From the NCBI GenBank assembly GCA_938084885.1, contig CALKGG010000018.1, forward strand, positions 1 through 64,000: a stretch of DNA of 64,000 bases. The letters are read 5' to 3'. The stretch is from an uncultured Acidimicrobiales bacterium. Lineage in GTDB: Bacteria; Actinomycetota; Acidimicrobiia; Acidimicrobiales; SHLQ01. The position numbers were made by a program, and so were the translations under genes. How positions within the stretch are numbered: the stretch's first letter is position 1; each line of letters opens with the position of its first letter. Positions 56,754-60,564 of the stretch are shown here, one piece after another. Below the pieces are notes generated by a model. That model had not been told where the DNA came from. It did no database searches and saw nothing but the letters and a program-made list of their open reading frames with translations.

Positions 56754-57904
56754 GCACTCGACGACCGCGACTCAGATCGCCACTCGCATCTCTCCACGAC
56801 CACGAAGTCTTCGCCGTCGAAGCTCGTCGGGCCCAGTTGTGTGTTCGATCGCCGAGCCGCGAGGTGGTCGTGAGCGTGGCGGGTCAAACCATCGCGGCAC
56901 CGACGACGACCGGCGTTGCTGTCGTTGCCGTCGAGAACCTTCATCCAAACACGACCTACGTTGCGGTACTCGAAGACGCAAACGGCCAGCCCCTCGGACA
57001 GCTGTTCTTCACGACTCGCCCACCGCTCGATGGGCCGACCACGAAGTTTGCGACGATCTCCGATGTGCACCTCGGTGCGGTCGACTTCGGAGGCCAACCG
57101 TCGATTACCGAGCCAAAGGGAACGTATCCGCCATTTGCGCTTCGATGTGCAAAAGCTGCGGTGGCTGAGGCAATCGCGTGGGGCGCCGAGATGCTCGTGA
57201 TCAAGGGCGATCTGACAGATACTGGATCGAAGGACGATTGGAAGCTCGCCCACCAGCTGCTCGACGACCTTCCAATTCCGGTAATCGCAACGTGGGGTAA
57301 CCACGACGTGTGGAAGACCCGAGATCTCGACCCAGCCACCGCCGTCGAGTCCTTTCAATTCGACGCGTTGCCCGTCGTGACCGCCGACCTCGGCGCGGTC
57401 CGAATTGTGTTGGCCGACACCTCTATCCCCGATCGCGGACACGGTGACCTCGCCCAGCATGGCGACCGAATTCTCGAACATGTGGACACGAACAAGCCCG
57501 TGTTTCTTGGCATTCATCACCACATCATGCGGACACCGCTCCCTTGGTTTTGGCCGCCCGGGATTCCGTCGACAAACACCCACCGGCTGCTCGATTCGCT
57601 GGCCAGAACCAACCCCAATACCTTCATCAGCGCTGGGCACACCCACCGAAACCGTCGACACTGCGTCGGCCCAGGTGGCGCGCTGACCTTCACCGAGGTC
57701 TCCGCTACAGCGGACTATCCGGGGGCATGGGCTGGCTATGAAGTCTCTGCTGGGGTCATCCGACAAACCGTGCAGCGAACAGCATCCCCCGATGCTTTGG
57801 CCTGGAGCGAACGTCTACGCGGTGCACTCGGCGGCATCTGGCCCCGCTGGGCGCAAGGCCGTCTCGATGATCGATGCGTCGACATGGTCTCGACGAACGG
57901 GTAG
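56750..57904 (+). CDS. Metallophosphoesterase with N-terminal fibronectin-like domain
   Basis: 384 residues starting at TTG (56750), which overlaps the pepN stop. The N-terminal ~85 residues resemble a fibronectin/purple-phosphatase type beta domain (VVAVENLHPNTTYVAVLEDA). The phosphoesterase domain has ISDVHLGAVDF, VIKGDLTDTG, ATWGNHDVW, LGIHHHIM and SAGHTHRNRR, all five metal-binding motifs. No signal peptide. Substrate unknown. Confidence 0.88.
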   Translation: MSTRRPRLRSPLASLHDHEVFAVEARRAQLCVRSPSREVVVSVAGQTIAAPTTTGVAVVAVENLHPNTTYVAVLEDANGQPLGQLFFTTRPPLDGPTTKFATISDVHLGAVDFGGQPSITEPKGTYPPFALRCAKAAVAEAIAWGAEMLVIKGDLTDTGSKDDWKLAHQLLDDLPIPVIATWGNHDVWKTRDLDPATAVESFQFDALPVVTADLGAVRIVLADTSIPDRGHGDLAQHGDRILEHVDTNKPVFLGIHHHIMRTPLPWFWPPGIPSTNTHRLLDSLARTNPNTFISAGHTHRNRRHCVGPGGALTFTEVSATADYPGAWAGYEVSAGVIRQTVQRTASPDALAWSERLRGALGGIWPRWAQGRLDDRCVDMVSTNG

Positions 57905-57960
57905 CGCACGAGGCCGGCGATATCAGAATCGTCGATGGGCTGGGTAGTAGCCTTCTGCGT

Positions 57961-59220
57961 ATGGACCTTGATCTCACACCGACCGAACTCCGGGTACTGT
58001 GCGCCCTGCTTGAGAAAGAAGCGACAACTCCAGATCAGTATCCACTGAGCACCACAGCTCTCCGGGCCGCGTGCAACCAGAAGACGAGCCGCGACCCGGT
58101 CACCGAGTTCACCGATGCCGAGGTTGAAACAACCGTGGTAGCGCTTCGCGAGCGCGGGGCCGTCCGAAGTCTGAAACCGTCTGGCTCACGCGGCTGGAAA
58201 CATCGACACACCCTCGACGAGGTGCTCCCGTTGACCGCCCCAGAAATGGCGCTGCTCACGGTGCTTGGACTGCGCGGACCACAGACCCCTGGTGAGATCC
58301 GACAGCGAACCGAACGCATCCATGCCTTCGACTCTGTTGAGGAGGTTGACGCCTCACTGCAAGATCTTCTGAACCGGCCAGATCCTCTCGCGAAGAACCT
58401 GGGGCGCGAACCCGGCCAGAGTCAAGATCGGTGGACCCATTGCCTCGATAGCGCCGCCCAGACTTCTGAGCAGGGGCGACAACGGGTGATGGCTGCAGAG
58501 TTCGCTGCATTGCATGAATCGGGATTCTTTGCACTGCCCAACCCGTGGGACCTCTTCTCGGCTCGGGCCATGGAGGCAGCTGGCGCTCGTGCTGTAGCGA
58601 CGAGCAGCTCGGCGCTTGCGACGGTGCTTGGAAAGCAGGACTACGAGATCGAACGGGCCGAGCTCATCGACCACGTCACACTGCTGACAGCGAACCTCAA
58701 TATTCCCGTGCACGTCGATGGGGAACGACTCTTTCCCGAAGAACAGGGCGGCATTGCCGAGACCGTCCGTTTGCTGGCCAACGCTGGCGCCGCTGGCGTC
58801 TCCATCGAGGATTACGACTCCACCTCGGACGCCATCATCGATCTCCCGAGCGCTCGGGCTGCCGTAGCCGAAGCAGCCCAGGCATGCGAGCAAAACCACA
58901 TGCTGCTGACCGCTCGCTGCGAGAGCCACCTGTATGCAAACCCATTACTCGATGACACGGTCGAGCGGTTGTCGACATACGCAGACGCTGGCGCCGGATG
59001 CGTGTACGCACCGGGCCTGACGAGCGTCGAAGATATCGAGCGCATCGTGCAAGACGTCAACGCCCCGGTCAACGTGCTTGCGTTAGCGAACGCCCCAGAC
59101 AACGAGATGCTGGAACTCATCGGCGTCCGTCGAGCCTCGACTGGTTCTCGCCTGTTCCAGACTGTCCAGAACGCTATGGTCGATGCAACGACCGCATTCC
59201 TAAGAAACCACGCTCCATGA
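57961..59220 (+). CDS. DUF480 (YceH) - isocitrate lyase/PEP mutase fusion protein
   Basis: 419 residues in two parts. Residues ~1-160 are DUF480: LTPTELRVLCALLEKEATTP, YPLSTTALRAACNQKTSRDP and GLRGPQTPGEIRQRTERIHA, two winged-helix units. Residues ~170-419 are a PEP mutase / isocitrate lyase family barrel: FALPNPWDLFSARAMEAAGA, HVDGERLF, SIEDYDS (acidic metal residues), and CVYAPGLTSVEDIERIV. The isocitrate lyase Cys motif is absent, so a lyase/mutase of unknown substrate. I have not seen this fusion described. Next gene starts by ATGA overlap. Confidence 0.88.
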   Translation: MDLDLTPTELRVLCALLEKEATTPDQYPLSTTALRAACNQKTSRDPVTEFTDAEVETTVVALRERGAVRSLKPSGSRGWKHRHTLDEVLPLTAPEMALLTVLGLRGPQTPGEIRQRTERIHAFDSVEEVDASLQDLLNRPDPLAKNLGREPGQSQDRWTHCLDSAAQTSEQGRQRVMAAEFAALHESGFFALPNPWDLFSARAMEAAGARAVATSSSALATVLGKQDYEIERAELIDHVTLLTANLNIPVHVDGERLFPEEQGGIAETVRLLANAGAAGVSIEDYDSTSDAIIDLPSARAAVAEAAQACEQNHMLLTARCESHLYANPLLDDTVERLSTYADAGAGCVYAPGLTSVEDIERIVQDVNAPVNVLALANAPDNEMLELIGVRRASTGSRLFQTVQNAMVDATTAFLRNHAP

Positions 59221-59867
59221 CCACCTCGTCCACCGGGTCACAAACAACTCGACCGGTCCAACTCACCGTCTATTCCGACTTTCTCTGACCGTGGTGCTAC
59301 GTCGGGACCGTGCGTCTCGACAAACTCAAAGCGCAGATGACGAGTCGGGTCTCGATCACGTGGAAGTCGTTCCTGCTTCGCGCCGAACCCAAAACCGGAG
59401 ATCGTGACGCGTTCCTCGAATACACCAAGTCGTGGCTTCGCCCCGCCGAGGTCGAACCCGACGTCACATTCACGGTGTGGGCAAGTGACGAAGACCAACC
59501 GTCATCGAGCGTGCCCGCGCACGTTGCATACAAGACAGTGGAAGCCATTGCCCCCGAGCTGGCGAAGCCGTTCCATGACCGGCTCATGCGCGGGTACTTC
59601 ACCGACAATCAAAACATCGCAGACAGCAACGTACTGATGGCGTTGGCCGCCGATGTTGGAGTCGACCCTGACGCGCTCGCAGCTGCGGGGGTCGAGCGAC
59701 GCAACGAGTTCACCAACGCAGTGATCGAGGAACATAACAGCGCCATATCAAACAACGTGACCGGCATCCCGACCGTGGTGTTCGAGAACCAATTTCCTGT
59801 GCCCGGAGCGCAACCTCTCGAGGCCTATGTCCGGCTGGTTGAGCGCATTGAACGTCGCCTCGACTAG
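59217..59867 (+). CDS. DsbA/FrnE-like thiol oxidoreductase, probable selenoprotein (UGA at codon 24)
   Basis: 216 codons from the ATG at 59217 (ATGA overlap with the previous gene) if the in-frame TGA at 59286-59288 is read through. The N-terminus runs VQLTVYSDFL-TGA-PWCYVG; relatives have D-F-x-CPWC-Y-x-G, so TGA replaces exactly the first active-site Cys, giving U-P-W-C (Sec24, Cys27). A hairpin of 8 bp with a 5-nt loop lies at 59301-59321, 20 nt between UGA and loop. The rest is a normal thioredoxin-fold DsbA protein with helical insert and cis-Pro loop VTGIPTVVFEN. Starting after the stop would remove the active site. If not Sec, it is a broken gene. Confidence 0.8.
59301..59321 (+). promoter_or_regulatory. 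Candidate bacterial SECIS hairpin
   Basis: GUCGGGAC (59301-59308) pairs with GUCUCGAC (59314-59321) over 8 bp (one G-U). The apical loop is CGUGC (59309-59313). The loop begins 20 nt after the UGA and has G as its second base, within the published bSECIS ranges (loop 16-37 nt from UGA, a G in the first two loop bases). It sits inside the coding frame, as bacterial SECIS elements do. Confidence 0.65.
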
Positions 59868-59970
59868 ACCACCGACGGCCGCTGCAACATCTCGCTCCTC
59901 AGAATACGGGTCGTGACCTGACCAATTGTGCAGTGTTGGCTACGGTGTGGCTGAACCGGCGGCTCTGCAT

Positions 59971-60564
59971 ATGACATTTTCTTTCGAACCACAACTCATA
60001 AAACAGGACTCGGCGGTTCCGCTACGGATGATGACCGGCGGATGGGTCGCTGGGGCCCTGATCATCTTTGTCGATGGCCCGGTCGCGAACCGACTGATTG
60101 CGCTCATGGGCATCTCCCTCGTTGCGGGAGGATTGATTGGTCTGCACCTGCGGGCCACCCGAATGTGGAGAATGGTGCTCGGCGCGAGCACTGGGGCGTT
60201 CGCTGCCTGGTTGGGCTTCCGGTTCGCATTTTCCGACCGCCTCCTCCCGTCGGTGGGCGACCCGTTGGAATTGGCCGATTCAGGCCGATTGTTTGCGATT
60301 GGACTCGGACTGTGTGTGTTGTCGATCGGCACCGGCGGCGTGCTCGAAGCTGTTCGCGCCCAGGGCACTCCTGGATCCTCGCCGTTGTGGGTGAAAGTTT
60401 TCCTGATCATCGTTGGCCTAATCATCACCGGAGCAATCGCGAGCGGCGCCGGAGTCTCGACCGGAATCACGTTGCTTCTCGCTGTCGCTGCGGCTGCGGG
60501 ACTCGCCGCAATGGCGTTCCTTCGAAGAGAACGACCCGCAAGCGACTTCATGCCCGCACCCTGA
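59971..60564 (+). CDS. Multi-span membrane protein, function unknown
   Basis: About 197 residues with five or six hydrophobic segments (for example MTGGWVAGALIIFV, LIALMGISLVAGGLIGLHL, LWVKVFLIIVGLIITGAIAS) and an Arg-rich C-terminal end. No family recognised. The ATG at 59971 is used; a GTG 15 codons upstream is possible. It stands between the redox gene and the glycosyltransferase cluster. Confidence 0.7.
   Translation: MTFSFEPQLIKQDSAVPLRMMTGGWVAGALIIFVDGPVANRLIALMGISLVAGGLIGLHLRATRMWRMVLGASTGAFAAWLGFRFAFSDRLLPSVGDPLELADSGRLFAIGLGLCVLSIGTGGVLEAVRAQGTPGSSPLWVKVFLIIVGLIITGAIASGAGVSTGITLLLAVAAAAGLAAMAFLRRERPASDFMPAP

Follow-up and report, generated by a model that had tools for sequence, protein, structure and literature searches.

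The question raised by this locus is whether a TGA codon that interrupts an otherwise complete plus-strand reading frame is a stop codon or is read as selenocysteine (Sec). The frame occupies positions 59217 to 59867 of the window, by which we mean the whole analysed stretch of 64,000 nucleotides from an uncultured Acidimicrobiales bacterium. Translation gave MTTSSTGSQTTRPVQLTVYSDFL-TGA-PWCYVG and then an open frame to the TAG stop, with 216 codons before that stop and one TGA only. When TGA was read as U, the product began with MTTSS and continued through SDFL into UPWCYVG. The first-pass annotation had described just such a frame, opening at ATG 59217, broken by the TGA at 59286, followed by PWCYVG and free of any further stop, and the translation bears this out. 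The ATG (59217 to 59219) shares bases with the stop codon of the preceding gene in an ATGA overlap (59217 to 59220), and an ATG is present at roughly this position in close relatives. The TGA (59286 to 59288) would encode Sec24 of a U24-P-W-C27 motif, in which Cys27 (59295 to 59297), the putative resolving cysteine, is the sole Cys in the inventory of the translated protein. Ordinary gene callers would take the GTG at 59310 to 59312 as the start. As had been foreseen, mechanical ORF calling yields a 185-aa product (59310 to 59867) that lacks the active site.

Conservation of the TGA codon

Orthologues were searched for in 395 genomes of the class, 51 genomes of the sister family, and 40 close relatives. 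This search revealed 49 full-length genes, including that of the window, to whose protein the other 48 were 37 to 70% identical. A single in-frame TGA was present at the same codon in all 49, in the context D-[FY]-L-TGA-P-W-C. The TGA was also found in two remoter genes that belong to other classes of the phylum (L103, 40% identity; L104, 32%). Conversely, TGC or TGT was found there in relatives further removed, as well as in five from within the clade. Alignment with Cys-containing homologues, which the first-pass annotation had proposed, thus set TGA against TGC or TGT at one codon, and confirmed that the TGA lies at the codon for the first Cys of the relatives' CPWC. One mark of a bacterial selenoprotein is a UGA, in frame, where homologues have Cys, and this is the arrangement found here.

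The sequence 3′ of the TGA is under purifying selection, with dN/dS values of 0.05 to 0.24 in seven pairs of genes, while an eighth pair was saturated. SDFL, which precedes the Sec codon, and UPWC are conserved in one frame. In the few loci for which an extra TAG or TAA was reported, that codon precedes the start. One relative, L079 (G434:C107), keeps the TGA and the N terminus; its downstream sequence is unrelated or shifted and diverges inside the SECIS region. This copy may represent a frameshift, an assembly join, or a decayed gene.

The downstream hairpin and the selenium machinery

We folded the RNA of positions 59286 to 59330. The structure is a stem of 8 bp, including one G-U pair (59301 to 59308 with 59314 to 59321), closed by the loop CGUGC, with a free energy of -12.1 kcal/mol. 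The stem begins 12 nt and the loop 20 nt past the UGA, and G is the second loop base. The geometry given in the first-pass annotation (59301 to 59321, 12 nt, 20 nt, G) was therefore exact. As a stand-alone argument the stem-loop failed: of 200 dinucleotide shuffles, 72 gave a fold at least as stable as that of the window's hairpin, which by itself lacks significance (z, -0.34). Consequently, we rejected single-sequence folding as proof, and the question was decided by comparison.

For the covariation analysis we used 48 distinct TGA sequences, aligned without gaps. The stem positions paired in 91.4 to 91.9% of cells, compared with 32 to 44% in slid controls. Both sides of a pair had changed in 53 cells, compared with 21.7 in shuffles, and 0 of 500 shuffles reached the observed pairing or the observed double changes; as the TGA sequences are related, these counts are not probabilities. 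Stem pair 21-31 is G-C in 30 sequences and C-G in 14, a swap that ties the choice between Leu and Val after the loop to the third position of a Gly/Ala codon. Stem pair 22-30 is A-U, G-C or G-U in 48/48. Within the loop, the G and U are invariant (N-G-U-N′-C). Loop bases 1 and 4, both synonymous third codon positions, pair in 46 of the 48 sequences (C-G in 23, A-U in 8, G-U in 8, and G-C in 7). Some orthologues have one or two stem mismatches.

We also resampled synonymous codons according to each gene's own codon usage. The stem retained 262.6 ± 6.2 pairs after resampling, compared with 358 of 392 observed, and the loop pair 20.1 ± 3.5, compared with 47 of 49. The mean folding-energy z score was -2.19 in the hairpin window, and no other sliding window along the gene fell below -0.74. 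In the Cys relatives the hairpin is absent, and the mean z score at the same window was -0.37. The contrasts between the hairpin window and the other windows, and between TGA and Cys genes, do not depend on the kinship of the sequences. We consider the comparative evidence decisive, as the orthologues share the TGA and the covariation is far above the controls.

An Rfam search with the hairpin gave no family match. The passages on the bSECIS model in a 2026 review (PMC13188914) describe a loop of 3 to 9 nt, an upper stem of 4 to 16 bp, a distance of 16 to 37 nt from the UGA to the apical loop, and a minimum free energy of -7.5 kcal/mol or lower. They also describe a G in the first two loop positions and, mostly, N1/N2 pairing across G[G/U]. 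On every one of these points the hairpin agrees with the model as given there, having a 5-nt loop, an 8-bp stem, a 20-nt distance, the N-G-U-N′-C loop, and -12.1 kcal/mol.

Expression of a selenoprotein calls for selA, selB, selD and a tRNA-Sec, and the first-pass annotation had proposed to look for them in the genome. All were present. SelA (E value, 2e-115) adjoins SelB (7e-83), SelD was detected at 1e-75, and the tRNA-Sec has the anticodon tca (UCA). The computation thus shows a complete Sec machinery beside the recoding signal and its conservation. SelB scored over the cut-off in 50/52 genomes with the TGA gene, compared with 219/395 genomes of the class. It was not matched in two TGA genomes, G188 (79% complete; locus L039, G188:C104) and G631 (98% complete; locus L103, G631:C359). 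Possible reasons are a missed or fragmentary SelB, a binning error, or an orphan selenoprotein gene.

The gene for the formate dehydrogenase alpha subunit FdhA (L099, G000:C62:29781-31646) has one in-frame TGA and is the second TGA gene of the genome. There, the UGA is followed by GUCGUC-GGUCU-GGCGAC, at the same UGA-to-hairpin distance and with the same GU-containing loop type as in the FrnE-type gene. An annotation taking TGA as a stop would split FdhA. SelD (G000:C23:40590-41495; L025:1402-3609) occupies the C-terminal half of a protein of 735 aa. By its sequence motifs, the N-terminal half resembles an NADH-dehydrogenase-like domain with FAD. In SelD itself, Cys appears to be used instead of Sec (CGGCGAKVG).

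Two explanations without Sec were weighed against these data. If the TGA were a true stop, or a sequencing or assembly error, the gene would be the 185-aa ORF from GTG 59310 or a pseudogene, which would fit both the mechanical ORF call and the broken look of L079. However, a start codon at the GTG position is not a conserved feature. Among the 52 TGA loci this codon is GTG in 27, GTT in 17 and GTC in 8 (that is, GTT or GTC in 25/52), and L034 has no start codon within the next 80 codons. The truncated product was therefore ruled out. The identical TGA in the 49 full-length orthologues speaks against a base-calling error and, together with the low dN/dS, rules out a sequencing error or a pseudogene; the single conserved frame across the TGA and the covarying hairpin also stand against this explanation, whose chance we put at close to nil. 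Hardly more probable is that the UGA is decoded as another amino acid, through readthrough by a near-cognate tRNA or a reassigned code. Sec is indeed a residue predicted from sequence, but UGA works as a stop nearby, where the upstream gene ends in TGA (59218 to 59220), residue 24 replaces a catalytic Cys, the bSECIS covaries in TGA forms only, and nearly all of the TGA genomes have SelB. The first-pass annotation had named three outcomes as contrary to a selenoprotein: a genome lacking sel genes, raw reads with TGC or TGT in place of the TGA, and frameshifts or further stops in relatives. On testing, none of the three held, the second being answered by the conserved TGA. L079 is the sole broken copy, and the selenoprotein interpretation is supported. 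The best explanation overall, with a probability of about 0.96, is a Sec24 selenoprotein made through SelB and the hairpin, predicted to be a FrnE-type DsbA-fold reductase/isomerase.

Protein family and predicted function

The Pfam DSBA domain (PF01323) matched residues 16 to 205 with an E value of 2.7e-26 and 93 bits, compared with a cut-off of 25.6. PF01323 together with UxxC, here UPWC, is the combination that characterizes DsbA-like selenoproteins. We made an AlphaFold model with Cys in place of Sec, and its mean pLDDT was 95.3. Ten positions are invariant over 46 aligned sequences: D21, U/C24, P25, W26, C27, L54, F128, V169, P185 and G197. Pro185 (59769 to 59771) belongs to a TGIP motif at the cis-Pro loop that thioredoxin folds typically have; its cis state is presumed from the fold family. 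No NCBIfam model reached its cut-off for the window protein. The NF041057 family (Rcas_1661 family thioredoxin-like (seleno)lipoprotein, DsbG-like) gave a short match over active-site residues 12 to 29 (E value, 1.5e-5), and membership was rejected because 24.6 bits is far under the family cut-off of 190. A tblastn search of plasmids returned FrnE-type relatives of about 30% identity only.

The best match in the PDB, both in sequence (E value, 1.2e-16) and in fold (TM score, 0.76 to 0.81; 22 to 24% identity in the structure alignment), is FrnE of Deinococcus radiodurans (DR_0659; PDB 5cnw, 5cp1 and 5co3). Its CPWC aligns with the UPWC of the window protein. The FrnE hallmarks of a DsbA fold with CXXC and of DR_0659 as nearest relative are present in the window protein, except that its first Cys is Sec. 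An export signal is visible in neither protein, the N terminus of the window protein having been judged by eye. D. radiodurans FrnE isomerizes and reduces disulfides, confers protection from cadmium and diamide, and regenerates its active site through a C-terminal CX4C (PMC8945050). This CXXXXC occurs in many but not all FrnE proteins, those of S. roseofulvus and D. maricopensis being without it (PMC8945050). The motif is not in the window protein, which has one Cys (Cys27) besides Sec24. The same fold is shared by DsbM, a cytosolic disulfide reductase of Pseudomonas aeruginosa whose structure was solved with GSH (PDB 5hfi; TM score, 0.71 to 0.75; about 21% identity).

Selenoproteins of this kind have been seen before, among DsbA-like proteins of COG2761, which we take to be the FrnE group. 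The family goes back to Zhang and co-workers, from 2005 on. In that year a Sargasso Sea member, placed in COG2761, was described (PMC1088965). There are also a UxxC-bearing "DsbA 1" in the GOS set (PMC2398784), a 2006 account of four sequences (PMC1794560), and occurrences in 41 organisms in 2016 (PMC5029168). A 2026 table lists "DsbA-like protein form 1, PF01323, UxxC" (PMC13188914). As the cited passages describe them, these proteins and the window protein share a DsbA/FrnE-type fold, UxxC with Sec at the first Cys, and a bSECIS just 3′ of the UGA. The first-pass annotation had spoken of a probable new selenoprotein; "selenoprotein" stands, and "new" was overstated, since the family has been listed since 2005 (PMC1088965, PMC2398784, PMC13188914). 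Compared by description, the published examples come from marine metagenomes, Deltaproteobacteria and Clostridia, and none of the cited passages names Acidimicrobiia. For selenoproteins of this class, our literature search found only work on sponge symbionts, which notes SelA/SelB in symbiont bins of various phyla. The window gene and its clade are new members of a known family, probably undescribed in Acidimicrobiia. This lineage is drawn from L010, a relative named as an uncultured Acidimicrobiales bacterium, whose sequence around the UGA is identical to that of L085 in G442, a genome from the same genus as the window.

By analogy with its relatives, the product is probably a small soluble FrnE-type oxidoreductase of the DsbA fold, acting as a cytoplasmic disulfide reductase or isomerase. 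In the mechanism that we propose, SelB carrying Sec-tRNA(UCA) would bind the hairpin 12 nt past the UGA and, competing with termination, insert Sec at residue 24. The Sec24 selenolate would most likely attack a substrate disulfide, in reduction or isomerization, and Cys27 would resolve the mixed selenide-sulfide. As the window protein lacks the C-terminal CX4C relay found in D. radiodurans FrnE, an external thiol or a thioredoxin-type reductant would regenerate the enzyme. The direction of the reaction, the cytoplasmic location, and a role in thiol/oxidative-stress repair are suggested by homologues only.

A selenoprotein with another role, as an oxidase, a GSH-transferase/HCCA-isomerase-like enzyme or a chaperone, is the less favoured possibility, though one with an appreciable share of the probability. 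The fold is common to kappa GST and HCCA isomerase (PDB 3rpp, 3fz5 and 2imd), and no operon partner points to a pathway. Against this, both CxxC active-site positions are kept, with U and C invariant, the solved structures closest in sequence and fold are those of FrnE disulfide oxidoreductases, and neither a DsbB-like partner nor an export signal was seen at the locus. The upstream gene (57874 to 59220, plus strand) is an in-frame fusion of a DUF480 (YceH-like) domain and a phosphoenolpyruvate mutase-like domain (Pfam PF04337 and PF13714), conserved as a neighbour only within the genus (10 genus loci). The downstream gene in the ORF list (59926 to 60564, plus strand; likely start, ATG 59971) encodes a predicted membrane protein of unknown function without a Pfam match, also a conserved neighbour within the genus (a cluster of 11 loci). 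Because these neighbours are not the same in the sister family, they reveal no pathway, and an operon-based function was rejected.

Selenocysteine and cysteine forms in the clade

We placed 62 proteins from a quick search on a tree that was midpoint-rooted for drawing only. The Cys form L043 is sister to the Sec form L039, and the Cys form L042 to the Sec form L041, each with an SH-aLRT support of 98. A constraint placing all Sec forms together was rejected (AU test, P = 0.0003), and the Sec/Cys label requires five changes on this tree. SelB persists in the genomes that carry L040, L042 and L043, which are actinobacterial Cys forms, and the hairpins of these genes are gone. Judged from the sequences, Sec is the rule in the well-resolved actinobacterial clade, with Cys versions nested within it and SelB kept. 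The direction of change is likely from Sec to Cys; the drawing-only root and the quick search keep this short of proof. In the nested Cys forms L012/L042 and L013/L043, the invariant loop GU was lost because Val changed to Phe or Ile. This suggests that the Val at the loop GU is maintained for the sake of the RNA signal, not of the protein.

A broader reading, to which we give an even chance, is that this undescribed actinobacterial FrnE-type clade is ancestrally Sec-containing and kept Sec across several families, with separate Sec-to-Cys replacements in genomes that hold SelB, accompanied by loss of the covarying hairpin. If this is true, the clade would lend itself to testing why one enzyme keeps or gives up Sec. 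It offers closely related Sec/Cys pairs in which to measure what selenium adds to a disulfide oxidoreductase. Where a gene caller takes the TGA as a stop, the enzyme is truncated and its active site lost, so that dozens of genomes probably carry a wrong annotation of a redox enzyme found across the lineage.
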